A DNA stretch of 48,041 bases from Parcubacteria group bacterium. GTDB taxonomy: Bacteria; Patescibacteriota; Minisyncoccia; Phycocordibacterales; CSBR16-119. Where the stretch lies: positions 1 to 48,041 of the forward strand of contig CALRFT010000006.1 of the NCBI GenBank assembly GCA_943356745.1. The letters run 5' to 3'. The notes under the pieces were generated by a model. It was not told where the DNA came from and ran no database searches. It saw nothing but the letters and a program-made list of their open reading frames with translations. A program made the position numbers and the translations under genes. Of this stretch, positions 1 to 40,609 are shown piece after piece (position 1 is the first letter of the stretch; every line of letters starts with the position of its first letter).

Positions 1-1743
1 ATTTTTATACTCTTTTCTTTTTTCTTTGCGTCTTTCGCATATGCAGAAAATATTGACCCAGCAGATGCTGGTAATGATTTTGCGGTGCTTGAGTTTGATG
101 ATTCCCAAATATCTTTTGATTGTACTTCTTGTAATGTTGAAGTAACTGATTCTGAAATTACAGGATATGCTTGGGGAGAAAACACTGGTTGGATCAATCT
201 TCAGCCTGGATCTTCTGGAGTTTTAAATGACGGTAATGGAAACCTTTCGGGATATGCTTGGGGAGAAAACACTGGTTGGATAAATTTCGAACCAACTTTC
301 GGAGGGGTTTCTATTGTTGACGGAGAATTTGACGGATATGCTTGGAGTGAAAATTATGGATGGATTCAATTTGATTGTGGGATTTCTGGTGCGTGTGTTG
401 AAACAAGTTGGCAGCCTGCAGGTGAGGAACCAGGAGGGGGTGGTGGAGGTGGGGGGTCTGGAGGAAGTAATCCAAATCCAGTAGATCCAATCCCAGGTTG
501 TACAGATAACGCTGCTTTGAATTTTAATTTGCAAGCAAATCAAAATGATGGAAGCTGTATTTTCCCAGCAGATACTATTTTTGGTTGTACTGTGAGTGAG
601 GCTCTCAATTACAACCCTAATGCTGATATAGATGATAATTCATGCCAGTTTGGTCAGGTGGAAACTCCAGATAATCCAGAAGATGATGACGGTGAAAACC
701 CTTTTGATTTACCAAATGAAGATACTGATCCGGAAAGTGAAGATGACCAAAACGGAGAATCTCTCGGGGGTTCTTCTCAAAATGAAGAGGGAAATAATAA
801 TACCTTTATTCCAAATTACACTTTTTCAAAAATTGATGTAGAGGAGGCTTCAAAAATAATCCCAATAATTCTTCTTGGTCTTTCTTTGCTTTCTATACCA
901 TTTCAACAACTACTTCAAGTTCCATCTCGAGCGGCTCAACTTATCTTCTCTTGGTTTGGAATTGGAAAGAAAAAAACATGGGGAGTGGTTTTTGATTCAA
1001 TGACAAAACAAGCTCTTGACCCTGTTGTTGTTGCATTGAAAGATATGCAGGGAAAAATAGTTCAAACCTCAATCACAGACATGGAGGGAAGGTTTGGATT
1101 TATTACAAGCCCTGGATTATATAGTTTGGAAGCACATAAGGCAGACTACACTTTCCCATCTCAAAAACTTGCTGGAAAAACTGGAGATGGATTGTATGAC
1201 GACTTGTATTTCGGTGGAACATTTCAAGTATTAGAAGAGGGGGAAATTATTACAAAAAATATTCCTCTCGATGCTGTAAACTTTAACTGGAACGAATATG
1301 AAAAAGCTCGTCTTGGAATCGGACACAAAAAAACTTTGTGGGAGAAAATTCAAAAATACGGAACCGCAATATTTGCTTTTGGATTCACCTTATCAATTGT
1401 CGCTGTGTTTATCCTCCCAACAATTTGGAACTATATCGTTCTCGGTTTGTATATTGTTGCGGGAATTCTTCAAATGCTTGGACTTCCAAAACATTCAGGA
1501 AAAGTTACAAGAAATGGACAACCACTTTCTTTTGGTGTGATGAGAGTATTTTCAAATTCACTCAAAAAAGAAATGAAAAAAGTTGTAATAGATAATCTTG
1601 GTAACTACTATTGTCTCATTAGAAGCGGGGAGTACTATGTAACATTTGAACAAAGAAATGAAGATGGTACATATGGGCTTGTCTATACTTCAGAACCATT
1701 TAAGGTTCGAAATGGTTCAATCCGTAAAAAATTTAATATTTAA
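1..1743 (+). CDS. Secreted/membrane surface protein with GYAW repeats, 5' end cut by window edge
   Basis: The reading frame is open to the first base, so the real start lies upstream. The first residues form a hydrophobic signal-peptide core ending in AYA, then ENIDPADAG. Three repeats of about 35 residues follow, each with GYAWGENTGWIN or a close variant, then a glycine-rich linker and two small cysteine repeats (GCTD..ALNFN..NDGSC and GCTV..ALNYN..DDNSC). After a long acidic linker come a hydrophobic segment, a CarboxypepD-reg/Cna-B-like beta domain (near KTWGVVFDSMTKQALDPVVV), two more membrane segments and a second similar beta domain at the C terminus. 580 residues are visible. Both repeat types occur in surface proteins of Parcubacteria, and the GCTD type also in Bacteroidota (family knowledge). 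The exact role is unknown; a cell-surface structural or binding protein is the likeliest. An internal GTG at 85 is possible but would remove the signal peptide. Confidence 0.75.
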   Translation: MFILFSFFFASFAYAENIDPADAGNDFAVLEFDDSQISFDCTSCNVEVTDSEITGYAWGENTGWINLQPGSSGVLNDGNGNLSGYAWGENTGWINFEPTFGGVSIVDGEFDGYAWSENYGWIQFDCGISGACVETSWQPAGEEPGGGGGGGGSGGSNPNPVDPIPGCTDNAALNFNLQANQNDGSCIFPADTIFGCTVSEALNYNPNADIDDNSCQFGQVETPDNPEDDDGENPFDLPNEDTDPESEDDQNGESLGGSSQNEEGNNNTFIPNYTFSKIDVEEASKIIPIILLGLSLLSIPFQQLLQVPSRAAQLIFSWFGIGKKKTWGVVFDSMTKQALDPVVVALKDMQGKIVQTSITDMEGRFGFITSPGLYSLEAHKADYTFPSQKLAGKTGDGLYDDLYFGGTFQVLEEGEIITKNIPLDAVNFNWNEYEKARLGIGHKKTLWEKIQKYGTAIFAFGFTLSIVAVFILPTIWNYIVLGLYIVAGILQMLGLPKHSGKVTRNGQPLSFGVMRVFSNSLKKEMKKVVIDNLGNYYCLIRSGEYYVTFEQRNEDGTYGLVYTSEPFKVRNGSIRKKFNI

Positions 1744-1747
1744 AAAT

Positions 1748-1787
1748 AAAAACAAACCCATCTGTTGAAAAGGTGGGTTTGTTTTTT
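1748..1787 (+). terminator. Rho-independent terminator
   Basis: The 10-bp stem AACAAACCCA/TGGGTTTGTT (1751-1760 with 1774-1783) is followed by a T run. It closes the first gene. The next promoter begins within its 3' side. Confidence 0.85.
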
Positions 1788-1789
1788 GG

Positions 1790-1795
1790 TACAAT
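1790..1795 (+). promoter_or_regulatory. -10 box (TACAAT) of the first S74 adhesin gene
   Basis: TACAAT ends 8 nt before the ATG at 1804, so transcription would begin at or just before the start codon. A TTGAAA at 1765-1770 inside the upstream terminator loop is a possible -35, but its 19-nt spacing is long. No Shine-Dalgarno sequence is present. Confidence 0.6.
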
Positions 1796-1803
1796 ACAAA
1801 GAC

Positions 1804-4620
1804 ATGAAGAGGAATTTTCTCTACATACTTATACTTCTTCTCTCTCTCACTTTTTATACAAAAAGTGTTTTTGCTGTACCACCAGCAGGAGGATATGAAC
1901 CAGGGGAAACACTTGATCCAAACTGTGCTCCGGGGGATGCAGATTGTATTGTGACTCCACTCATTGCTCAAGATGAAGGAGTGGATCTTTCAGGTAATGT
2001 TCTCAAATTAAACTTCACAGGTGATGGAGTTTCTTCAAGTATTTCAAGTGGAGTGGTGACAGTGAATGTGCCAGGAGGGCCAATAGAAGAACTTTTTCCT
2101 GGAGGGCAGTTTGGCCAAGGTTCAACTCTTTCTAGTACAGGAGTCGGTGCTGCTACAGGTACTAGTATAGGAGGTAATGTTTATTTAGGTTGGCAAGCAG
2201 GGCATAGCGAGCTAAATTCTGGTTACGGTAATACAGCGGTTGGAAGCAAAGCTGGTTCGAGTCTGTTTTTCTCTGGAATAGCAATTGGTCTTAATGCTGG
2301 AGGTGATGGAGACATTGCACCTCCTTTTGGTGATGGAAATGGACAAAATGGAGGTGTCTTTATTGGTCAAGGTGCTGGAAATACAGCTAGAGCAGTTGAT
2401 GGTATTGGTATTGGGGACGGTGCATTAAGACAGGCTTCTAGAATGACAAATGTTATTGCAATTGGTGAACGCGCAGGTTCCAACATAGCACTCACAAAAT
2501 CAACTAACCCTACCTCAAACTCTATCATGATTGGAGATGATACATATCACGGAGGTTTCTCAAACTCAATTGCCCTTGGTACAAACGCTGAAAATACTGC
2601 GCCTAACCAACTTCTTTTAGCTAGTTCGTACACAAACCTATCTCTCAGAGGTGTTAATTATGTTTTACCTGGAAGTGGTGGCGGAGCAGGTACTGTTCTA
2701 ACAAACGATGGTTCAAATAATCTTTCTTGGTCTGCAATTCCTGATAGTAATAATATAACACCTTCGCTCACTCTTCAGTCAACTTTCGAGCTACCTCAAT
2801 CATATTTGAATCTTCTTGGATATAAAGAATCCCTTTTCTTAAAATCTAGTAATCAATTTACAGCTATTGATGTTTCAAATCCTTATTTGCCAAATATTAT
2901 AGATTCAGAAACTCTTACTAGTTCTTCAGGGAATTCTGGCGCTATGGATATTGATACTAATACTGCCGTAGTTTCTACTGGGGATAATATAGATATATTT
3001 GATATATCAAACACATCAAATATAGTAAAGACAGATACTCTATCAATTACAGAGCCATATGATATTAAAATATACGGTCAATATGTTTATGTGCTACATA
3101 ACTCTGTTTCAAATACACTTTCAGTTGTAGATATTTCAGATAAACAAAATGTCTCTATTGTTAATACAGTTTCATTATCTTTTAGTTCACCTCGAATTAT
3201 TTCGTTAGAAAATGACACAATGGTAATTGGAGATCTGGGAGAAATTCAAATCATTGATGTTTCAAACTCATCAGATCCAGTTCATGTTGAGACTTCAAAT
3301 AATCTTGGGTCTTCGTATTTTTTTAACAATGCTACAATCGACGGTAACTATGCTTATGTTAGTTATAACGATGGTGTAACTCTTGAGTTAAGAGTTGTAG
3401 ATATTTCAGATATTTCTAATATAGTTAATTATTATTCCGTAGAAACAGGAGGTGTATTCTTGGTGAGACTTGAAAAACAAGGAGATTATTTGATTGCCAC
3501 TGGCTATGGATCTGGATCTGCGACTATTAATATGTTGAATATAGAAGATCCTGACAATGTTTCTCTTGTGTCATCTATTAATGCAGATACCGATGAACTT
3601 ACAGGAACTGCTATAATTGGAAATAGGGTATTTACAGCTGATGTTGTTGAGGTTACAAATAATTTGTATACATATAATATTGGAGGTATTAAAACACCCT
3701 CGATTATTTCATCTGTCATAAAAGCTGGTGATATTACAGCACAGAAAATAATTTCAAATTTTGCTAAGATAGATAATGCACTTTCGGTGGGGCAGGGTGG
3801 TATAATCTCCTCTGGATTAATGAGTATTTCTCCGAATTTTTCTACAGATCAAATTGCATTAAGAGCAGGAAGTTCATTTGTAACTGATGGAACTGCGATT
3901 CTTCGACTTCAAGATGCAAACAGTACTTGTGATTTTGATGCTGATACTGGATCTCCAACTTGCGGATCTGATGAAACACTTAAGAAAAATATTTCTTCAA
4001 TAGAAGGTTCACTTTCAAAAGTTTTAGGTCTTCGACCTGCAAACTATAATTGGCTTACTGAAGAAGATGAGGCACCACTTCAACATGGATTTATTGCACA
4101 AGAAGTAGAGGTAGTATTTCCTCATTTGGTAAGTGAAAATACTTGGATTGATGGAACAACAAGAAAGTTCTTGAACACCGGAGGAATGATTCCATACATT
4201 GTCGGTGCAATCAAAGATATGTATACAGAATTTAAGACAAATTTTGTGACGAAGCGTGTTCAGGTTGAAGAAGAGATTTGTTTTGATGATGTGTGTTTGG
4301 ATAAAGAAAAAGTTCTTGAGCTTTTGAATGAATCAAATATAAGTTCATCATCAAATTATAATCAAGATCAAGAAGAGGGTCAGGTGATTGAATCTTCCGA
4401 AAATAATTCAACCCTACAAAACCAAACCTCTTTATCTGAAGAACAAACACAAGAAGAAACATCAGTAAACACTGAAGTAGACACAGAAGAGCAGGTCACA
4501 AACCAAAACCTTGTAGAAAAACTACTAGAAGAACAACCAGCTCCAACAGAAAAACAAACTACAGAGGAAACTGAAAATGGCTCAGTAGAAGAAACAATTG
4601 CCCAGCAAACTACTGAATAA
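1804..4620 (+). CDS. Secreted trimeric adhesin-like protein with LVIVD-type repeats and C-terminal S74 chaperone domain
   Basis: 938 residues from the ATG at 1804. An earlier TTG at 1765 lies in the preceding terminator and was rejected. A signal peptide ending SVFA is followed by a motif shared with the gene at 5513 (PP.GGY.PG.TLDPNCAPGD.DC). Next come YadA-head-like repeats (AIGLNAG, GVFIGQGAGN, IAIGERAGSN, SIALGTNAEN), then five or more repeats of the kind VDISD..N...V....., like LVIVD beta-propeller repeats. Near residue 722 the motif SDETLKKNI begins a Peptidase_S74 intramolecular chaperone domain, with GFIAQEVEVVFPHLV downstream. In phage tailspikes this domain trimerises the fibre and then cuts itself off at the Ser (family knowledge). 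An acidic E/Q/T-rich tail of about 100 residues follows. It is likely a cell-surface fibre used for attachment (inference). Confidence 0.8.
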   Translation: MKRNFLYILILLLSLTFYTKSVFAVPPAGGYEPGETLDPNCAPGDADCIVTPLIAQDEGVDLSGNVLKLNFTGDGVSSSISSGVVTVNVPGGPIEELFPGGQFGQGSTLSSTGVGAATGTSIGGNVYLGWQAGHSELNSGYGNTAVGSKAGSSLFFSGIAIGLNAGGDGDIAPPFGDGNGQNGGVFIGQGAGNTARAVDGIGIGDGALRQASRMTNVIAIGERAGSNIALTKSTNPTSNSIMIGDDTYHGGFSNSIALGTNAENTAPNQLLLASSYTNLSLRGVNYVLPGSGGGAGTVLTNDGSNNLSWSAIPDSNNITPSLTLQSTFELPQSYLNLLGYKESLFLKSSNQFTAIDVSNPYLPNIIDSETLTSSSGNSGAMDIDTNTAVVSTGDNIDIFDISNTSNIVKTDTLSITEPYDIKIYGQYVYVLHNSVSNTLSVVDISDKQNVSIVNTVSLSFSSPRIISLENDTMVIGDLGEIQIIDVSNSSDPVHVETSNNLGSSYFFNNATIDGNYAYVSYNDGVTLELRVVDISDISNIVNYYSVETGGVFLVRLEKQGDYLIATGYGSGSATINMLNIEDPDNVSLVSSINADTDELTGTAIIGNRVFTADVVEVTNNLYTYNIGGIKTPSIISSVIKAGDITAQKIISNFAKIDNALSVGQGGIISSGLMSISPNFSTDQIALRAGSSFVTDGTAILRLQDANSTCDFDADTGSPTCGSDETLKKNISSIEGSLSKVLGLRPANYNWLTEEDEAPLQHGFIAQEVEVVFPHLVSENTWIDGTTRKFLNTGGMIPYIVGAIKDMYTEFKTNFVTKRVQVEEEICFDDVCLDKEKVLELLNESNISSSSNYNQDQEEGQVIESSENNSTLQNQTSLSEEQTQEETSVNTEVDTEEQVTNQNLVEKLLEEQPAPTEKQTTEETENGSVEETIAQQTTE

Positions 4621-5512: not shown

Positions 5513-7708
5513 ATGCGTAAAATTTACATAGCTATCATAGCTTTTTTTGGTATTGTGGGATTTGCTCATGGTGTTTTTGCTGCGCCGCCAACTGGTGGCT
5601 ACACTCCAGGACAAACACTCGACCCAAACTGTGCTCCGGGGGATACTGACTGTGTTGTAACCCTAACTCCATCTCCATGGGAAGTTTCTGGATCTAACAT
5701 TTTCTACGATGCAGGTAATGTTGGGATTGGGACAAGCAACCCTGGATCTGCAAATTTTATGGTTGTTGGTGATAGTCTCTTTAGAGGTCGGGCTGATTTT
5801 GAGGGATTATCAGGATCTTCTACTGTAATTTCCTCTGGTATTCTTGGTACTGAGGGTGGTTTGTATGCTTCCTCTGGCGATCAGCAAATAGCAACCTATG
5901 ACGAGCTTACTAGTTTCTACAGATATGCAAACGGTGCTTTAGTGTATGATGAAAACAATAATGAATTTACTCAAACAGGTTTGAGTAAATTTACCAGAGG
6001 TAGTGCAACTGGAACTTATTTATCTGCTGAGATTCTTGAAACAGAGGCAGGACTTTACAGTGCGGTTGCAGATCAACAAATAGCAACGTATGACGAAATT
6101 TCAAACAGGTATACTTATGCCAATGGGGCATTACAATACAACGCAGACACTGGATTTTTAGGTGTTGATGGAATATCCACATTCGAACTTATCGCTGGTG
6201 GAAATGTATCTTTTTATACTGAAGGCTTAGGGATCAATGCCAATACAGTACACCCTTCAGCCGTGCTCGATATTTCTTCTACGACCCAAGGTTTACTTGC
6301 TCCACGAATGACGACGGTTCAAAGAAATGCCATAGCATCACCTGCAACAGGTCTTTTGGTGTACAACACCACAGACAATGCTTTTAATTTCTATAATGGA
6401 ATATCTTGGACAACATTCGGGGGCGGTAGTAGTTTGATTGGATCTACTAGTCAAATCAATCCAGGTGCTATATTCGAAACTTTTCTTGGGGAAGAGGCGG
6501 GAAGTGTCGGTGATATGGAATCAGCTGTGGCTGTTGGTTGGAGGGCAGGTAAAAGTAATACAGATTCTGGGGGAGTTTTTATTGGTGGAGAAGCGGGATA
6601 TACTCCAAATTCTGGTGATCTTTTCACTTCTACAATAGTTGGTCTTCGAGCAGGATATGAATCAGAAGGAGACATTACAGCTTTTGGAGAGCTTGCAGGT
6701 AGTGGTGTAAGTATGCCAAATGGAAATTATGGAACATTTGTGGGTTATGCAGCAGGTTCTGATGCAACCAATGCCAGTGATTCTGTTTTTATAGGAAGTG
6801 GTGCAGGTTCTTCAGCAGCTAGTGCACGAAATAGTATTTTTATTGGTGCAAATGCTGGCACTGCTGATTTTGTTGATAATACCACTTCAGAATATTCTAT
6901 CCTTATTGGTAAAAATACTTCTACTGGAAACTTTTCAAACTCGATTGCTCTTGGTTTCAGTGCTGCAAACACCGCCTCAAATCAATTCCTTATCGGTAAT
7001 AGTACCTCAAGCCCTATCAATACTACTCGTATCAACGGTAGTGCAGGTACTCAATGTACCATCACCACGGGGACAGGTATCGCGTGTACTTCAGATGAAA
7101 GGCTGAAGGATAATATACAAAGTATAGAGGATGGTATTCTAGAAAAGATACAAGGATTAGATGCTGTGACCTATACATGGAGTCAGGATGAAAATAGTAC
7201 AACTCAAATAGGATTTCTTGCTCAGCAATTGGAAACAATCTTCCCTGAACTAGTAGCCACAGACAGTGAAGGATACAAATCTGTATTTTACTCACAAATG
7301 GTACCAATACTCACTAAGGGGATACAAGAGATATATGAATTAGTGGAAGGAATATTTGAAAATCTGGAAACACAAAGAGTTCAGACAGAAGAACTCTGTG
7401 TCGGCTCAACATGTATTACTGAAGAGCAATTTTTGGAAGTGTTTGGTTCAACAGGGCAATCTGGTTATGTTGAACAAAACAGTCAGGAGCAAAATGAAGT
7501 AATGCAAGATAATCAAAATTCTGAAAATCAACAAATTGTACCTGAGGAGAATAATGAAGCATTAGACCAATCTCAGAATCAAGAAAATAACCCAGAAATC
7601 ACTTTAACTGAAACAGAATCTTCACAAGAGGAAGCTGAAATTCAGCTCATGGAAGAAACAACCCAAGAGGGAGATATGCAAAATATCGAACCTTCTAATA
7701 TTGAATAA
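5513..7708 (+). CDS. Secreted trimeric adhesin-like protein with C-terminal S74 chaperone domain
   Basis: 731 residues, a paralogue of the gene at 1804. The signal peptide ends GVFA, then the shared motif APPTGGYTPGQTLDPNCAPG and DTDC. The body includes GNVGIGTSNPGS, a segment common in tail-fibre-like proteins (DISSTTQGLLAPRMTT...ASPATGLLVYNTT), and YadA-head-like repeats (AVAVGWRAG, SVFIGSGAGSS, SIFIGANAGT, SIALGFSAAN). SDERLKDNI at about residue 527 starts the S74 self-cleaving chaperone, with IGFLAQQLETIFPELV downstream. As in the paralogue, a cysteine pair (ELCVGSTC) and a long acidic E/Q/N-rich tail follow. After release of the chaperone the fibre would remain on the surface (inference). 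It lacks the LVIVD-type repeats of the other copy. Confidence 0.8.
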   Translation: MRKIYIAIIAFFGIVGFAHGVFAAPPTGGYTPGQTLDPNCAPGDTDCVVTLTPSPWEVSGSNIFYDAGNVGIGTSNPGSANFMVVGDSLFRGRADFEGLSGSSTVISSGILGTEGGLYASSGDQQIATYDELTSFYRYANGALVYDENNNEFTQTGLSKFTRGSATGTYLSAEILETEAGLYSAVADQQIATYDEISNRYTYANGALQYNADTGFLGVDGISTFELIAGGNVSFYTEGLGINANTVHPSAVLDISSTTQGLLAPRMTTVQRNAIASPATGLLVYNTTDNAFNFYNGISWTTFGGGSSLIGSTSQINPGAIFETFLGEEAGSVGDMESAVAVGWRAGKSNTDSGGVFIGGEAGYTPNSGDLFTSTIVGLRAGYESEGDITAFGELAGSGVSMPNGNYGTFVGYAAGSDATNASDSVFIGSGAGSSAASARNSIFIGANAGTADFVDNTTSEYSILIGKNTSTGNFSNSIALGFSAANTASNQFLIGNSTSSPINTTRINGSAGTQCTITTGTGIACTSDERLKDNIQSIEDGILEKIQGLDAVTYTWSQDENSTTQIGFLAQQLETIFPELVATDSEGYKSVFYSQMVPILTKGIQEIYELVEGIFENLETQRVQTEELCVGSTCITEEQFLEVFGSTGQSGYVEQNSQEQNEVMQDNQNSENQQIVPEENNEALDQSQNQENNPEITLTETESSQEEAEIQLMEETTQEGDMQNIEPSNIE

Positions 7709-7712
7709 GTCT

Positions 7713-7744
7713 ACAAAAAGCCCGCTTTTGAGTGGGCTTTTTTG
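7713..7744 (+). terminator. Rho-independent terminator
   Basis: The stem AAAAAGCCCGC/GTGGGCTTTTT (one G-T pair) is followed by T and TTG-rich sequence, 5 bp after the stop at 7708. Confidence 0.85.
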
Positions 7745-7759: not shown

Positions 7760-7787
7760 TTGCATTTTTATTTTTATATTGTATAAT
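7760..7787 (+). promoter_or_regulatory. Promoter TTGCAT-N16-TATAAT
   Basis: TTGCAT (7760-7765) and TATAAT (7782-7787) are 16 bp apart. The predicted transcript starts near 7794 and has an A-rich 19-nt leader almost identical to that before the gene at 4740. Confidence 0.75.
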
Positions 7788-7812: not shown

Positions 7813-9348
7813 ATGAAAAAGTTCTTTGTTAGTTTAATGCTTTTTGTGTCATGTTTTGGCGCTCAAGCTCAAGATGAAACTTGTCCAGAAGGGACAGTTC
7901 AATACATTGTTGCTATTACTGTTGACTACTATGGATCAGAAACAGGATTTTACATTAATGAAAATCCCGACATGATTCAGTATGATGGAGTAAATGACCC
8001 AATCTCAAGCCTTGGTCCGATTGTTTATTCAATTCCCGCAGGTACTTATCCTGACTTAATTCAGGGGCAAACTTTTTTTGAAGAAGTTTGCCTTACTAAT
8101 GGATGCTATTCCTTCAGTATTTATGATACTTGGGGAGATGGTATAGGATTTACAAATGGCTCATATCAGCTTTTGGTGGGGGATTCTGTAGTATTGTTTG
8201 GCGGTGGAAATTTTGGCGCCTGGGATTCACAAGTTTTTTGTGTTGATTCAGCGATCGAAATTTTATCTGTTCTTGGTTGTACTGATACTAGTGCTTGTAA
8301 CTATTATCCAGGCGCAACAGAAGATGATGGAAGCTGTTTGTTTCATGGCTCGCCATGTGCACATGAGAATCCTCTCATTACGAATGCAGTTTTTAATGAA
8401 AATTGTTTTTGTGAAGGAAGTATTATTTACGGATGTACAGATTCACTTGCTATGAACTACAATCCAGAAGCAGCTGTTTCCGATGGTCAATGTTATTACA
8501 CACCAGGTTGCACTGAAATCTTGGCTTGTAACTACAATCCACTGGCTGATTGGAACGACGGTAGCTGTGATTTTGTGTCTTGTATGGTCATTGGATGTAT
8601 GGATGAATTGGCAAATAATTATGATTCACTTGCTACTCTTCCAAACCCCAATGCTTGTCTGTATCAAACAGTATCTTTTTCAGTTGTTCAAAACTGCAAA
8701 GAGGTTATGTTGATCAACACAACTCCAGACGCTCCCGTGGCTGGTCCCGGCGTATTCTTTATTTGGGAGTTTGGGGATGGTGAAAGTCTTACTACATTGT
8801 ATGATACTTTGTATTATGGATATGAAAATGGTAGCTATACTATTACACTTATCTATGCGCAAGGTATGTCGCTTCAGTCGGTGTCTTACGACATTACGGT
8901 CTCTGATTTTTTAGAAACCCCGGAGCTTCAACTTGTGGGTCAGACACTTGTCTGTTCTGCAGATGCAGTGGAGTATCGATGGTTTTTAGATCAGGTGGAG
9001 ATTGCTGTCACTTCTGATAATGCACTTGAGGTTAATGCTACTGGTGAGTACCGCTGTCAACTTGTTGGACATGGTGGATGTCTTGCGTCTTCTCTTCCAT
9101 ATATAGTGAACACTGTCTCGTTGGAAGAAATGAAAGACGTACAACCTTTCATTGCCCCTACTTTAGTCAACACAGATTTTACTGTGAGAAATATAGAGGG
9201 TCTCTTGTCTATTTATGATATTTCAGGACAAGGTGTCTGGGAAGGGAATGTATATAATGGAGTGCGGGTAGACTGTTCTTTCCTTGCGTCTGGAACGTAT
9301 GTGGTAAGATTGCCAAATTGGACCACTTTACGTTTTGTAAAAAATTAA
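7813..9348 (+). CDS. Bacteroidota-like secreted protein: GCTD repeats, PKD domain, type IX-like sorting domain
   Basis: 511 residues. The signal peptide starts MKKFFVSLMLFVSC and ends AQAQD, typical of Bacteroidota exported proteins. After an N-terminal domain of about 130 residues (YSFSIYDTWGDGIG) come four cysteine repeats (GCTDTSACNYYPGATEDDGS and three variants), then a PKD-like domain (FIWEFGDGE), an Ig-like segment (YRWFLDQVEIA...GEYRCQL) and a C-terminal domain of about 70 residues. That last domain has the layout of the type IX secretion type A sorting signal: LLSIYDISGQGVW, FLASGTYVVRL and a terminal RFVKN. This signal is known from Bacteroidota and relatives, so transfer from that phylum is likely (inference). 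Whether this cell has any type IX machinery cannot be seen here. Terminator and promoter are its own. Confidence 0.8.
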   Translation: MKKFFVSLMLFVSCFGAQAQDETCPEGTVQYIVAITVDYYGSETGFYINENPDMIQYDGVNDPISSLGPIVYSIPAGTYPDLIQGQTFFEEVCLTNGCYSFSIYDTWGDGIGFTNGSYQLLVGDSVVLFGGGNFGAWDSQVFCVDSAIEILSVLGCTDTSACNYYPGATEDDGSCLFHGSPCAHENPLITNAVFNENCFCEGSIIYGCTDSLAMNYNPEAAVSDGQCYYTPGCTEILACNYNPLADWNDGSCDFVSCMVIGCMDELANNYDSLATLPNPNACLYQTVSFSVVQNCKEVMLINTTPDAPVAGPGVFFIWEFGDGESLTTLYDTLYYGYENGSYTITLIYAQGMSLQSVSYDITVSDFLETPELQLVGQTLVCSADAVEYRWFLDQVEIAVTSDNALEVNATGEYRCQLVGHGGCLASSLPYIVNTVSLEEMKDVQPFIAPTLVNTDFTVRNIEGLLSIYDISGQGVWEGNVYNGVRVDCSFLASGTYVVRLPNWTTLRFVKN

Positions 9349-9353
9349 AATCT

Positions 9354-9390
9354 AAAAAGCTTCGCACGTGTGCGAAGCTTTTTCTTTTTT
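9354..9390 (+). terminator. Rho-independent terminator
   Basis: A 13-bp perfect stem AAAAAGCTTCGCA/TGCGAAGCTTTTT with loop CGTG, then a T-rich tract. Confidence 0.92.
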
Positions 9391-10026: not shown

Positions 10027-11577
10027 ATGAAGAAATTTATAATACTATGCTTACTCGGAATGGCGATTGCTACTCCTCAGAGTTCTCAAGCAGTAACTCT
10101 TTCTGAGGTTGTCACAAAAATAGAACAACTTCAAAGAGATGTTGAGGATCTTCGTATGAGATTTATGGGGCAAGCTAGTGGCGCAGCTCTCGTGGGTGGG
10201 TTAGCAACTCCACTTCGAAGAGGTTCGACAGGAGTTGAGGTAACAGAGCTACAAAACTTTTTATCTGAGCGAGGTTTCTATACCGGACTCGTTGACGGAG
10301 TATTTGGTATGTCTACACTCAATGCTTTGAATGCATACAAAGCTTCACTTGGATTTTCAAGCTTTGGATCTTCTTTTGGGGGATCTTGGCGAGTGATTGG
10401 TGATCCTGTCACAACATATGTAGTGAGTTCATCAGCATGTAAGGCAGACTTTGATGGAAATGGAAGAGTTCAGATAGCAGACTATATTCTACTTGAAGAA
10501 AAACTTGGTACAGTTCCAAGTCCTGATCAAATTATGTTCGATATTAAAGTTGATGGTATTATCGACAAATATGATATTCGAGAATGGATGACACATTACG
10601 GAAAAACAAATTTCTGTTTTAATGCTCAAGCGTCAACAGAAGCACAGTGGATTGCAAGTACTGCTGGTAATGTAGTAAATCCACCAGCGCCAAGTGCGGT
10701 ACCTGCAAATTCAAACTGGTCAGCAGAAACTTTGGGAATTGCAGAAGAAGACGCGTGGCTTTGGGATTATCAGGTGGTGCGAGTTACTAGACATGCACGA
10801 CGACAGGTTCCTGTGACAGTCGGGGGTGTTTCATCAGGAAATGGTTTTGTGAGTGTGATTGAGCCAGTACAAAACTCTCCAGTTACTCTACTTGCACACC
10901 AATTTGCTGGTATGTATGATCGAGTAGAAAACAACAATGGTACATTGTTTCTTGTTCAAGAGGCAACATATATATCACCAAATGGACGACAACATGATAC
11001 TGTACGAAAGTTTGAATTGAAAAAGCCAACTGCAAGTGAAAACCAAACAACAAGTATCGATATGATATATACGAAAAGTGATACTGGAATTGAAGGAACA
11101 ATCTATATCAACAAGCGACCAATTTCTTCATATAATGGAGTGTTTCCAAGATTCTTTAACTTCTTTACTACAGACGCAAAATGGATGATGACGATGAGAG
11201 TTTTGAATGATGGTCCTATTGAAAATACAAGTGTGCTTGGGGTAAATGATAATGCCCCAGAAGCAGCATTTACTTTTGAAACAATCGCGGATCCAAGATT
11301 GGCATCAATCAATATTATGCAAGGATCTTCTACTTTTAATCCAACAACACCACAAGGATATTACAATCCAGATACTAATACTATCACTTTGAAGCCAAAC
11401 CAAGGACAGGTAGTATGGTTTAAACTTTTCCAAAAACCACCTTCAGTATTTCCAATAGGATTTTCTGGTATGAGTGAGACAAAAACATTTGGAACAGATT
11501 TTGCTATTAATCTCCAAAGAAATACAGCTGTGATTCAAAATGGTGATTTTGTGTCATTGCAAGAACAGGGACTTTAG
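10027..11577 (+). CDS. Secreted peptidoglycan-binding and dockerin-like protein
   Basis: 516 residues with a signal peptide ending SSQA. A short coiled coil (VTKIEQLQRDVEDLRMRF) is followed by a PG_binding_1 domain at about residues 57-105 (LRRGSTGVEVTELQNFLSE, then GFYTGLVDGVFGMSTLNALN). Residues 137-195 hold two dockerin-like calcium loops (ADFDGNGRVQIADYILLEEK and DIKVDGIIDKYDIREW) between two cysteines. The C-terminal 300 residues are beta-rich and not assigned. The first module suggests attachment to peptidoglycan and the second calcium-dependent protein contact, so it may tether other surface proteins to the wall (inference). Its stop codon lies within the 5' arm of the shared terminator with comFC. 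Confidence 0.75.
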   Translation: MKKFIILCLLGMAIATPQSSQAVTLSEVVTKIEQLQRDVEDLRMRFMGQASGAALVGGLATPLRRGSTGVEVTELQNFLSERGFYTGLVDGVFGMSTLNALNAYKASLGFSSFGSSFGGSWRVIGDPVTTYVVSSSACKADFDGNGRVQIADYILLEEKLGTVPSPDQIMFDIKVDGIIDKYDIREWMTHYGKTNFCFNAQASTEAQWIASTAGNVVNPPAPSAVPANSNWSAETLGIAEEDAWLWDYQVVRVTRHARRQVPVTVGGVSSGNGFVSVIEPVQNSPVTLLAHQFAGMYDRVENNNGTLFLVQEATYISPNGRQHDTVRKFELKKPTASENQTTSIDMIYTKSDTGIEGTIYINKRPISSYNGVFPRFFNFFTTDAKWMMTMRVLNDGPIENTSVLGVNDNAPEAAFTFETIADPRLASINIMQGSSTFNPTTPQGYYNPDTNTITLKPNQGQVVWFKLFQKPPSVFPIGFSGMSETKTFGTDFAINLQRNTAVIQNGDFVSLQEQGL

Positions 11578-35044: not shown

Positions 35045-38000
35045 ATGATTAAAAATATGTTTAGCGAAAAAGTGTCTACAAGTAAGAAGACACTTACTGC
35101 TGTGTTTGTGGTAGGGGTTTTGTTATTTTCTGCTTTGGTTATTAATTCTATTCAACAGAAAACAAACCTTCAGGCTCAATCTGGTTTTTTGGTTCGAACC
35201 CTTTCTAATTTAATAGGAAGTAGACTCGATCCGCTAAAAAATATACCAAATGATAACTTAACATTTTCTTCTGAATCAGCGCAACAGAATAATGCTATTC
35301 TTTTTACAGAAGAAGGACAGCCGATTATTGATTTTAATAATTTAGATAGTATAAAAAACTCATCAGCTACCGGGTCTAGTTCTGGTTTTTTTATTTTGCC
35401 AGAAGATAAAGATCCGCTAGGAGTAAATTCCTATATTGTTACATTCAAGGCGGATCCAATTGCAGAAAAAGCAAAAAATGTTTTAGCGTCCCAAGGAAAA
35501 GAAATTTTACCTGGTGAAAAAAATAAAGAAGCGCTAAAACAAGATCTTCAAAAAATTAAACCTCAAATTGATTCTCAAAAAACACTTATTGCAAATCAGC
35601 AAAATGGACTACTTACAAAAGTAGGTTCTGAATTTGGTGATGTTAAAAGTACACGAGGATCAGTAAAAGTTTATAATGATGGACAAAAAGAGGTTACAGT
35701 GCGACAACTTAAATCTGCCATCAATGCAGTGACTATTTCTAACGTAACCGAAGATGAAATAAAACAACTTACTCGAGGTGTCTCAAATATTGAAAGAATC
35801 GAGAAAGCTCAACTAATTACTGCAGACCTTACTGATACAGCAGAAATTATTAATACAGAACAATTACAACAGTACTTAGGTGCAAACGGAGTTCCTCTCA
35901 CTGGACAAGGAACAATTATCGGAGTTGTTGATACAGGGGTGGACTACACTCATCAAGATCTTGGTTCTTGCAGTTTCCTTCTTGAGGCTGGTTGTAAGGT
36001 TGCTTATGGATATGATTTTGTTAATAACGATCCAGATCCTATGGATGATCAGGGGCACGGGACTCATGTGGCTGCAACCGCTGCTGGAAATGGTTACTAT
36101 ACTCAATCTAATGGAAATACACAGCCTCTTCTTGGAATTGCTCCTGATGCAACAATATATGCATTTAAAGTTCTAGGAGCTAATGGATCAGGATCAAATG
36201 TTGGTGTTATTGCAGCTATGGAGGCTTGTGTAGATCCAAACGGAGACGGAGACATTTCTGATCGAGTTACTGTTTGTACATTAAGTCTCGGTTCTGCTAA
36301 TGGTAATCCAACAGACGCAACTTCACTTGCTGCAGATGCCGCTGTTGATGCGGGGGTTATTATGACAATCGCTGCTGGAAACGATGGTCCTGGTCCTGAA
36401 ACAATTGGATCACCGGGAACTTCAAGAAAAGCTATTACAGTTGGTGCGGCTTGTAAACCTTCTCAGGTTGGCAATGATGCTCTTTGTAATGAAGCAGTTG
36501 CTTCGTTTTCTTCGCGTGGTCCAGTACTTTTCAGTGAAAATGGACAAAATATTTCTATAAATAAGCCAGATGTCGTTTCTCCAGGTGTTTCAATATGTGC
36601 TGCACAATGGGGTGATTGGTTACAAGGAAAATCATGTCTTGGAGATAACCAACATATTGCTATTAATGGTACATCGATGGCAACACCAACAGTTGCTGGA
36701 CTTATGGCATTGTTAGCTCAAGCACATCCTGAAAAAAGTGTTGCTGAATTAAAAGAAGCATTGATGACAAGCGCAACAGATCTTAATCTTCCTGTTAGTG
36801 TGCAAGGGCAAGGTTTGGTTGATGGTCAAGCTGCTTTAGAGACTCTCGGAATACCAAATGCATTTGTTCAAATTCAAGGTTTACCATTCAATGTTAATGA
36901 TACGGGAAACTCTCAAACTGCTAGTTATTCAAAACAACTGACTTTGACCAATACTTCAAATACACCTCTTAATCTTACTGCTACCCGTGTAACTTCAAAT
37001 GCAGGTGTTGATCTTACATTTCCTGGAACTGTTTCTATTCCTGTCGGTGGTCAACAAAATTTCAACATCACTATGGGTATTGACCATACTCAAGCAATAT
37101 CTGGAAATACTAAAGAAACTATTAAGTTAATGAATGGTTCAGAAAGTGTAAATCTTACAATTTCTAGAAAAACACCAGATTATCTTACGACAAATAAAAC
37201 AAAACTTGATTTTGGATTGTTTCACGCATCTCAAGCAAACTTTAGTGCAACATTACCCATTCAATTAACAAATAGAATGAATTTCCAAGGAGAGACATAT
37301 GATGTTGTGATTGATGAATCTCTCATTCAGACACCCTATCAAGATAATATTACTGTTACACCTTCTAGTTCTCAAATTACCCTGAATGCTGGACAGCAAA
37401 CAACATTGAATGTTTCTATGTCTGCACTCTCTGCTACTGGTAACATACTTCCTAATAAGGAATATAAAGTTATATTGAAACTCGTTTCTGATAAAGAAAC
37501 TATCCCTATTGAACTTACTCTTTTCAGAGGATATAGTTTTGAATTGTATTATGGAAATGTTGTGCCTGATATGGCTACTGTGTCTGGATCAACATGGCAG
37601 CTTTCTTATGTTCCTAATCCACAAGCTCAAAGCATGATATTTAAGACTACTCAACAAGGTCCTTATCACGCTATTGGTATTTATACAGATAACCAATCTG
37701 GATTTCAAAGATTAACAACTATTTATCAACATGATATAGGGCTCAATGGAAGTACCGGAGTTGTTACTTATGATATTTCAAAAAATAAAGCAGAGCATAG
37801 AATAGAGAATACTTACTCTGGTAACGCTTGTGTTTTTAGAACTATTCCAGACACTGGTGAATGGTCAAGAGGGTTAACTTCTTCAATAGGAGGAAAAATT
37901 GCGGTTGAATATAATACAATCCCTGAAAATATGCACTTCTCTTTGATTTGCGGAGACTTAATGCCGGCAAATGATAGAATCATATTTTCTCAGATTTATC

Positions 38001-40609
38001 TGACTGAAGGATTGAATCAAGATTTTTCTTTGAATAATAATACTGCTGATATATCAACTCGATATATGTATGGTTTTGACAATAGAGAAGGAGAAGACAC
38101 ATTATCTCTCGGAATTAATATTTGTAATTTTAGGTCATTTAGAGAAAATGGTGAAGTTGATAGTAGGTATAATTTGTGTAATCTCTGGCAATATGAAGGA
38201 GGTGGATTAAATATAGAAGAGGGCGGAAGTGCGATTATTGAAGTACGAAGTCTTCACACTGATACTCCAGAAACAGCTGAGGTTCCTTCTTATCCAGCAT
38301 TTCGTATTCACGCATTAAGCGGAACAGGAACCCCTGCTGATGAATATATGTATGTTACTCCTGAAATGTTTGGAACTTCTGAAAAAATGTTCGCCTGGGC
38401 TCCAGGTATGACGGGTGCACTTACTACAAGTCAATCAACTTTAAATTATTATCAAACACACAAAATTCCACTGGTGAACGATGACTTCATAACAGTAGGA
38501 ACTGGTCCTGTTGTTGATACATCTTCAATAAAAGCTTTTAAAGATGATTTTGGATTTGTTTCTGGAAGAGATGCTAGTTACTTTAGTATGTATCGATATG
38601 CGGATGGAACTACTGAATCAGCAATGTCTCAAAATCCAAACCCAACAAAGGCAAGAATTAATTTCTTTAGAGATGGTCAGCTTGTAAAAACTGTAACGCC
38701 TAAGATGGATAGTTTCTTTGAAATGGCTGGTTCAAATATTCCAGATGAAGAAGGTGATCTGAAAGGAAATAATTATGGAGGTCCAGTTGTTGGAGACTAT
38801 CGAATTGAAATTGATAGAATAGGTAAATTTAATGGGCAGGAACAGGATGGATTTTTCTCAAGCGAGCTAGAGTTTGATATTTCTTCAAATATTGTTGACT
38901 CAACTCCTCCATTTATAAAAACTATTCAACTTGTTCAAGATGGAATTTTGCAAAATAACTTCGACCCCCAAAATCCGGGAACTTTGCGTCTATATGTTGA
39001 TCCAGGTAAAGGTATTCAATCTCACAACTTAACAGAAGACTCTGTAGGAGCTTATAATATTTCATTTATGAATGACTCTATCACTTCTATTACAGTTTTT
39101 GCAGGAGATTCATATAATCAATTGACCGCTCTGCCGAACCCTCAATTAACAGATGGTTACTATGCAGTGAATCTTGGTTCTCTTGTTGCAGCTCCTAACG
39201 AATACAAATATTTTAGAGTTGAAGTACAAGATGTTGCTGGAAATAAAATCAAATATAATTTTGCTATTGAAGTAGGTGAATCACTTACAATCGAGGATAT
39301 TGCAGATGAGTTACTTTTGGTTTGTGTTAAGAGTGCTCCTCTCATTGCTTACTCTCCAGCGACTCCATTGGTGATTGCTGGCGCACCGTATATTACATTC
39401 GATATGTCGATAAAAAATCAAGATTCTCAAGCTTGTGCTCCTACCGCACACACTGTTACACTTAAATCAAGCCAGTATCCTCCACTTAATAGTAATGCTA
39501 CAGGAACGCCAAAGATTAGAATGACTCAATGGAGTAATACACTTTCTCCAACATTTCCTACAACCACAAGTTATGTGTATACAAATCCTTACAATCCTGG
39601 CGCTACTATAGTTAGAAAAATTACTGTGAGAGCTGATGCCGGACTTGCTAACGGAAACTATCAAATTGGTGCAAGTGTAAAAGAGGGGCAAACCTCATCT
39701 ACATCACCATCTACAGAATTAACCAATCTATTTGTTGATGTTGGAGTTGTTTCAGATGATCCAATTGATACACCAACTTGTACACCAAACACAACAAGCG
39801 TTACACTGAATCCTTCGCAGTCTACAATCGACTCAGGTGGTCCTGTAACATCATTCGGATTTACAATTACAAACAATGACTCAGCTCCTTGTTCACCTTC
39901 AAGCTTCTCTCTAGCATTTGATACCGATCAATTCCCAGCATCAATATCTGGAACAAGGAAGATTCGAGGTAGTGCGACAAATACGAGTTCATTTACAACA
40001 ACAGAGTTTACGATTGCAAGTGGTTCATTAAATCCTGGACAGTCTTACACTGGAACAGGGTACCTTCGAGCTGATACCTATTTCCCAAATGGTTCATATC
40101 AAATTGGAGCAGTGCTTACTGATACAACAAACAATCAAACTCAAACAGTTCCTATGACTGTGGTTGTGAATGGGGCTGAAACAGAAAATCCAACAGGGGG
40201 AACATGTACAAGAAACCCTGCTACCGTTACCCCGATTGGTCTGATTGCTAGTCATCCAAATACAGAACTTACAACAAAAGCATACCAACTATCAATCACA
40301 AATAATGATAGTACTGGTTGTCCAAATACAACATTCAAAGTACTCATTACAGAACCGCTGGATGGATTTGGTTTAGGAAAATCAAATCTAGTAACACCGC
40401 AAAATAATCAAAACAAATTTGATCATTTCTGGTCTCTAGCTCCAGGACAGACACAAGTAAAAAATGTGTTTTATAGGAATTTTGGTTCCGTGACAGATCA
40501 GTTAGTGCCGTTGACTGTTCAAGTTACCGACATAACTCAAGTAGGTGGAGGTTCAACACATACACCTGCAACATTGCAAGGTTCAATCAAGTTTGGAAAT
40601 CCTCAGTAA
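35045..40609 (+). CDS. Giant secreted subtilisin-like (S8) protease with Ig-like repeats
   Basis: 1854 residues. An N-terminal signal peptide or anchor (LTAVFVVGVLLFSALVINS) is followed by a propeptide-like region (to about 270). The S8 catalytic domain runs about 285-605 with Asp296 (GVVDTGVD), His338 (GHGTHVAA), Asn446 (AAGND) and Ser544 (GTSMATPTVAG); all four are present, so it should be active. Beyond are Fn3/Ig-like beta domains (about 610-790), a long unassigned region, and three C-terminal repeats of about 130 residues beginning CVKSAP, CTPNTT and CTRNPA, each with a TNNDS-like turn and a cysteine. It probably cuts proteins of a host or competitor, or processes surface fibres (inference). 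No LPXTG or type IX signal is seen. Confidence 0.88.
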   Translation: MIKNMFSEKVSTSKKTLTAVFVVGVLLFSALVINSIQQKTNLQAQSGFLVRTLSNLIGSRLDPLKNIPNDNLTFSSESAQQNNAILFTEEGQPIIDFNNLDSIKNSSATGSSSGFFILPEDKDPLGVNSYIVTFKADPIAEKAKNVLASQGKEILPGEKNKEALKQDLQKIKPQIDSQKTLIANQQNGLLTKVGSEFGDVKSTRGSVKVYNDGQKEVTVRQLKSAINAVTISNVTEDEIKQLTRGVSNIERIEKAQLITADLTDTAEIINTEQLQQYLGANGVPLTGQGTIIGVVDTGVDYTHQDLGSCSFLLEAGCKVAYGYDFVNNDPDPMDDQGHGTHVAATAAGNGYYTQSNGNTQPLLGIAPDATIYAFKVLGANGSGSNVGVIAAMEACVDPNGDGDISDRVTVCTLSLGSANGNPTDATSLAADAAVDAGVIMTIAAGNDGPGPETIGSPGTSRKAITVGAACKPSQVGNDALCNEAVASFSSRGPVLFSENGQNISINKPDVVSPGVSICAAQWGDWLQGKSCLGDNQHIAINGTSMATPTVAGLMALLAQAHPEKSVAELKEALMTSATDLNLPVSVQGQGLVDGQAALETLGIPNAFVQIQGLPFNVNDTGNSQTASYSKQLTLTNTSNTPLNLTATRVTSNAGVDLTFPGTVSIPVGGQQNFNITMGIDHTQAISGNTKETIKLMNGSESVNLTISRKTPDYLTTNKTKLDFGLFHASQANFSATLPIQLTNRMNFQGETYDVVIDESLIQTPYQDNITVTPSSSQITLNAGQQTTLNVSMSALSATGNILPNKEYKVILKLVSDKETIPIELTLFRGYSFELYYGNVVPDMATVSGSTWQLSYVPNPQAQSMIFKTTQQGPYHAIGIYTDNQSGFQRLTTIYQHDIGLNGSTGVVTYDISKNKAEHRIENTYSGNACVFRTIPDTGEWSRGLTSSIGGKIAVEYNTIPENMHFSLICGDLMPANDRIIFSQIYLTEGLNQDFSLNNNTADISTRYMYGFDNREGEDTLSLGINICNFRSFRENGEVDSRYNLCNLWQYEGGGLNIEEGGSAIIEVRSLHTDTPETAEVPSYPAFRIHALSGTGTPADEYMYVTPEMFGTSEKMFAWAPGMTGALTTSQSTLNYYQTHKIPLVNDDFITVGTGPVVDTSSIKAFKDDFGFVSGRDASYFSMYRYADGTTESAMSQNPNPTKARINFFRDGQLVKTVTPKMDSFFEMAGSNIPDEEGDLKGNNYGGPVVGDYRIEIDRIGKFNGQEQDGFFSSELEFDISSNIVDSTPPFIKTIQLVQDGILQNNFDPQNPGTLRLYVDPGKGIQSHNLTEDSVGAYNISFMNDSITSITVFAGDSYNQLTALPNPQLTDGYYAVNLGSLVAAPNEYKYFRVEVQDVAGNKIKYNFAIEVGESLTIEDIADELLLVCVKSAPLIAYSPATPLVIAGAPYITFDMSIKNQDSQACAPTAHTVTLKSSQYPPLNSNATGTPKIRMTQWSNTLSPTFPTTTSYVYTNPYNPGATIVRKITVRADAGLANGNYQIGASVKEGQTSSTSPSTELTNLFVDVGVVSDDPIDTPTCTPNTTSVTLNPSQSTIDSGGPVTSFGFTITNNDSAPCSPSSFSLAFDTDQFPASISGTRKIRGSATNTSSFTTTEFTIASGSLNPGQSYTGTGYLRADTYFPNGSYQIGAVLTDTTNNQTQTVPMTVVVNGAETENPTGGTCTRNPATVTPIGLIASHPNTELTTKAYQLSITNNDSTGCPNTTFKVLITEPLDGFGLGKSNLVTPQNNQNKFDHFWSLAPGQTQVKNVFYRNFGSVTDQLVPLTVQVTDITQVGGGSTHTPATLQGSIKFGNPQ

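Follow-up and report, generated by a model that had tools for sequence, protein, structure and literature searches.

Type A cargo proteins of the type IX secretion system (T9SS) of Bacteroidota (TIGR04183/PF18962) are modular exported proteins with a Sec signal peptide and a sorting domain (CTD) of about 70–80 aa at the extreme C terminus. The distributions of CTDs and of the T9SS have been reported as strictly correlated, with few exceptions (PMC10202324). The proteins described here share this architecture, and their sorting-domain profile matches solved CTDs. Unlike the Bacteroidota cargo, however, they are encoded in organisms without detectable T9SS or Omp85, and the copy in the DNA analysed here, P0001, lacks motif B. 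A second known arrangement, the type B cargo with its PorP/SprF partner, resembles a genus-level locus at which a CTD gene immediately precedes one whose exported product has a barrel-like size; there, the partner belongs to no known family and the truB-linked CTD matches TIGR04183 weakly. Overall, exported proteins that bear T9SS tags extend over whole patescibacterial families in which neither T9SS nor Omp85 is detectable. The literature searched, most subscription journals lying outside its scope, yielded no paper describing T9SS tags in Patescibacteria.

The window, i.e. the whole stretch of 48,041 nucleotides that was analysed, represents the entire contig C6 of genome G000 (685,622 bp, 8 contigs, 96% complete). 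P0001 is encoded on its forward strand at positions 7813–9348 in an intact reading frame of 511 aa. The protein begins with a Sec signal peptide (7813–7872, MKKFFVSLMLFVSCFGAQAQ, next residue D), called by a hydropathy script from a basic N terminus and a hydrophobic core and not by a dedicated predictor. It continues with an N-terminal module (residues 28–145, 7894–8247) that matches a plasmid of the Bacteroidota Persicobacter sp. JZB09 (tblastn: 36.7% identity, E 1e-8). Cysteine-bearing GCTD..NYxPxA..DDGSC repeats (8275–8664) follow, which recur in other proteins of G000, G001 and G012, and then a weak PKD-like domain (residues 308–363, 8734–8901; PF00801 20.1 bits, below the cut-off of 23.5). 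These findings support the view of the initial annotation that a gene of FCB-type architecture resides in a Patescibacteria genome. Elsewhere in the genus, GCTD repeats are found at positions 1–1743 (+) of the window, L022:10690–12333 (−) and L024:3–1496 (−); some of the repeat proteins also contain membrane segments and carboxypeptidase-regulatory-like domains, and G012 contains a 2188-aa frame rich in GCTD-type repeats that gave no CTD match.

The sorting domain of P0001 (9190–9342, +) covers model positions 20–71 of 72 and stops one residue short of the C terminus. The initial annotation had proposed a type A sorting domain at this end of the protein, and TIGR04183 confirmed it, with 25.8 bits (E 7.8e-6) for the C-terminal 72 aa and 24.4 bits in the genome translation (alignment A3), both above the cut-off of 23. 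The same model against the whole protein (21.0 bits) and Pfam PF18962 (16.5 bits, cut-off 27) stayed below their cut-offs because the PNP of motif B has been lost: in the alignment, IAPTLVNTDFTV replaces YPNP. The motif D-like G-x-Y (LASGTYVVRL) and the C-terminal RFVKN, both named in the initial annotation, are present; with the PNP missing and the motif E lysines reduced, this copy has degenerated in part. The PNP is kept in the copy L022 on contig C1 and in most relatives, and is lacking in 9/74 domains of the set. In HBP35, the last 22 CTD residues are enough to carry GFP out (PMC10202324). Motifs D and E have proved sufficient at least once, again in HBP35 (PMC10202324), so that loss of the PNP need not abolish recognition. 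With regard to a possible Ig-like fold, a single-sequence structure model of the domain shows four strands at a mean pLDDT of 59; a profile built from this domain and 13 related ones (A3) matches the solved T9SS sorting domains of gingipain R2 and RemZ in the PDB. A chance match is unlikely because only one of 14 control genomes, Bacteroides ihuae, gave a signal in the search of 397 genomes (E ≤ 1e-4). We conclude that the sorting domain of P0001 is a real but weak and partly degenerate copy.

The gene is solitary and is flanked by terminator-like hairpins on either side, one upstream (7715–7742, +; 12 bp stem, T run) and one directly after the stop codon (9354–9383, +; 13 bp stem, T run). A possible promoter read from the sequence, TATAAT at 7782–7787 (+) with TTGCAT (7760–7765) 16 nt upstream, is no stronger than chance, as are the sites found by a promoter scan of this region. 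Neighbouring genes likewise encode surface-type proteins, namely two S74-chaperone proteins (1765–4620 and 5513–7708) and a peptidoglycan-binding/dockerin-like protein (10027–11577), followed by a PilM-type pilus gene. Further along the window, a subtilase-family protein of 1854 aa is encoded at 35045–40609 (+); its best NCBIfam match is mycosin, far under the mycosin cut-off. Codon usage of the P0001 gene is mildly atypical (z −1.6; GC3 29% vs 23%), and its composition falls inside the range of its own genome.

Two more CTD proteins are encoded in G000, both on a 284-kb contig. The first (1049 aa, 51 bits) adjoins a gene in which GCTD repeats and a membrane protein are fused. The second (687 aa, weak match) lies between truB and native genes; its ortholog in G001, another species of the genus (“Candidatus Nomurabacteria”; 52% identity), is likewise located next to truB. 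This truB-linked pair shows ordinary codon usage. For P0001 itself, no ortholog was found. Another CTD gene of G001 runs across two frames (L026:11285–12104) and is either decayed or affected by a sequencing error. Near the truB-linked CTD locus, a lipoprotein-like gene of Bacteroidota appearance (LVACSGSKDTT) is located at L023:9131–9751 (−).

One genome, G036, calls for separate treatment: its contigs C14, C15 and C19 (L027, L028, L029) look like Bacteroidota mobile DNA in a patescibacterial bin, a probable contamination. Its 10 hits were not used as evidence and were left out of the promoter/terminator and dialect tests; they are still contained in the counts marked below as including G036. 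CTD genes were present in 3/3 genomes searched of the window's family (including G036), and a TIGR04183 domain above the cut-off was found in 35/397 genomes of the order (including G036). In family f87, 40/79 genomes exceeded the cut-off and 23/24 genera showed a match at E ≤ 0.01; in family f53, the cut-off was exceeded by 17/20 genomes. A phylum-wide sample gave 7/380, and the distant genome G662 encodes four CTD proteins on long contigs. The distribution is patchy, f87 included. Matches lie on contigs of up to 388 kb flanked by housekeeping genes, and most of the CTD genes inspected are single genes amid neighbours such as tpiA, nusA, valS and secA. In view of the length of the contigs and of the neighbouring genes, contamination was rejected for G000, G001, f87 and f53; hits in G025, G048 C10 and G061 were judged false. 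The sorting domain is a lineage trait that the initial annotation had overlooked. Its observation is confirmed and was understated: P0001 belongs, as a weak member, to a lineage-wide set of exported proteins with T9SS tags.

Across the set, 53/55 domains end nine or fewer residues from the stop, and 67/71 full-length ORFs begin with a signal-peptide-like segment (both counts including G036). Among 59 upstream regions, 16 contained a near-consensus sigma-70 site (11/12 or better), compared to 0.3 expected from shuffles, and a terminator hairpin followed 35/74 genes (0.5 expected). The Bacteroidota-type promoter TTTG...TAnnTTTG was absent from all 67 upstream regions, a hardly informative result given an expectation of 0.55. 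In genus g88, positional homologs of CTD genes are located beside hsp20/valS and nusA, and in these sets the last 80 residues are 58–73% identical, whereas the cargo reaches 21–44%. Paralogs of G403 and G662 likewise show a domain more conserved than the cargo. No such excess was seen in f1 or f53, and domain and cargo are level (50% vs 52%) in the window's genus. A general rule that the domain is more conserved than the cargo was rejected, as this held for 15/37 homologous pairs (including G036). Both members shared the same CTD type in 22/24 within-genome pairs versus 14.6 expected, the dialect label being a rough script rule and paralogs contributing to the count. Many g88 domains retain the ordinary T9SS consensus.

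In the producers, nothing points to an outer membrane or a T9SS, in line with the initial annotation. Omp85 (PF01103) was detected in 0/30 genomes, and this search gave a signal in seven named control genomes. No SprA match was obtained in the sets of 11 and 30 genomes, and no C25 (PorU-type) peptidase match in 11 genomes; for both, the control genomes gave no convincing signal, so that absence is unproven. A PorU match at L111 (NF033707) spans the CTD alone and is not a sortase.

How could a sorting domain be maintained in such cells? The initial annotation had left the choice between a passenger and a new role. At the level of the lineage, the balance shifts towards a role, because of vertical retention in the genus, occurrence in two families, promoters and terminators, and a domain more conserved than the cargo in g88. 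“New role” may nevertheless be misleading, since the domain may still serve its original function, but in the machine of another organism. The reading we favour, with a probability of roughly 40%, is that the CTD proteins are host-directed cargo: an epibiont would export them, and Bacteroidota-like hosts would bind them with their T9SS surface machinery. Still more tentatively, this could be described as cross-species addressing: epibiont proteins would be tagged in the T9SS dialect of the host, whose surface machinery would capture, display or process them. P0001 would then belong to a set of tagged exported proteins of a Nomurabacteria-type genome, with the tag as a label read by another bacterium.

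The proposed pathway starts from CTD genes that probably came from FCB bacteria. Judged by its flanking hairpins and by the promoters and terminators of homologs, the P0001 gene is probably transcribed as a single-gene unit. The signal peptide would direct the product via Sec across the single cell membrane of a producer that presumably lacks both an outer membrane and a T9SS with which it could itself read the tag. On a T9SS-bearing FCB host (Bacteroidota, Ignavibacteria and similar), surface-exposed PorV-type shuttles may bind the tag, PorU processing would be possible, and the protein may be displayed or released at the host surface. The outer membrane has been found to hold a large excess of free PorV, which keeps cargo at the surface (PMC5562754), and modelling places CTD motifs B, D and E against the extracellular loops of PorV (PMC10202324); an epibiont protein with such a tag could therefore be captured from outside. 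External capture of CTD proteins by PorV was not described in the literature searched. In activated sludge, the abundances of Patescibacteria, Parcubacteria among them, are correlated with that of Chitinophagales (PMC9530719), and Bacteroidota are among the inferred gene donors to Patescibacteria (PMC12455944). Host-directed cargo is favoured because of these PorV findings, the Chitinophagales correlation and the Bacteroidota donors. It is further favoured by the lineage trait, the C-terminal placement, the promoters and terminators, vertical retention, conservation in g88, the shared dialect, the PDB matches and the 0/30 result for Omp85. Against it count that the conservation excess is not general, that the PNP is lost in P0001 and that the distribution is patchy even within f87.

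The main rival, which we consider a real though doubtful possibility, is that genes for secreted proteins were acquired horizontally from neighbouring FCB bacteria and retained because their cargo was of use (adhesion, binding, enzymes), while the domain came along and is tolerated as a folded C-terminal cap without a specific reader. The FCB-type cargo and signal peptides, including the Persicobacter-like module of P0001, fit such an origin, as do the Bacteroidota donors (PMC12455944), and the patchy distribution, the loss of the PNP in P0001 and in the other domains counted above, the frameshifted copy in G001 and a domain conservation no better than that of the cargo in f1 and f53 are consistent with tolerated baggage. 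It accounts less readily for the syntenic g88 loci, where conservation of the domain is about double that of the cargo, and for a domain kept at the extreme C terminus of diverse cargo in two whole families. For P0001 itself, the passenger half of the original alternative is still viable, given the loss of motif B, the lack of an ortholog among the genomes searched and the slight deviation in codon usage; this degenerate gene is explained about as well by passengers as by host-directed cargo.

It is unlikely that the Ig-like CTD has been repurposed and now docks or anchors proteins on the patescibacterial cell's own surface, where a native partner would read it. Retention of the domain without a detected T9SS would agree with this, and a candidate partner exists: in both species, the truB-linked CTD gene lies directly 5′ of a gene for a conserved small exported protein of 257–270 aa (P0004/P0005; L023:5316–6164 (−), L025:2943–3788 (+)), an order reminiscent of the PorP/SprF shuttle genes that come after type B cargo genes (PMC12618676). 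However, this partner was seen solely in G000 and G001 and not beside CTD genes elsewhere in the order. It matches no Pfam or NCBIfam family, and so neither PorP nor SprF, and its structure model (pLDDT 31) is not usable; a beta-barrel identity was dropped on these grounds. In addition, many g88 domains stay on the ordinary T9SS consensus and not on a new one.

A divergent, unrecognised T9SS and outer membrane in the organism itself would find room in the SprA and C25 searches, which had no working positive control, but is highly improbable given the Omp85 result with its seven responding controls and the near absence of SprA candidates at the first-look stage. An assembly or binning artefact that mixed Bacteroidota DNA into patescibacterial genomes is close to refuted: the three G036 contigs resemble Bacteroidota mobile DNA, but a chimera, named by the initial annotation as refuting its claim, left no sign in G000 and is very unlikely because both further copies are part of a 284-kb contig, on which one of them is flanked by truB and native genes, the truB-linked ortholog has the same neighbour in G001, hits elsewhere sit amid housekeeping genes on contigs of up to 388 kb, and the codon usage of P0001 is only mildly atypical, with its composition inside the genome range.

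If the CTD proteins are indeed host-directed cargo, they would provide a mechanism for epibiont–host contact, and their tags would serve as a sequence clue to the hosts of uncultured Nomurabacteria-type Patescibacteria, an idea that could be tested without culturing the epibiont. Even if they are passengers, they document that genes have flowed into this lineage from FCB bacteria in a sustained way.
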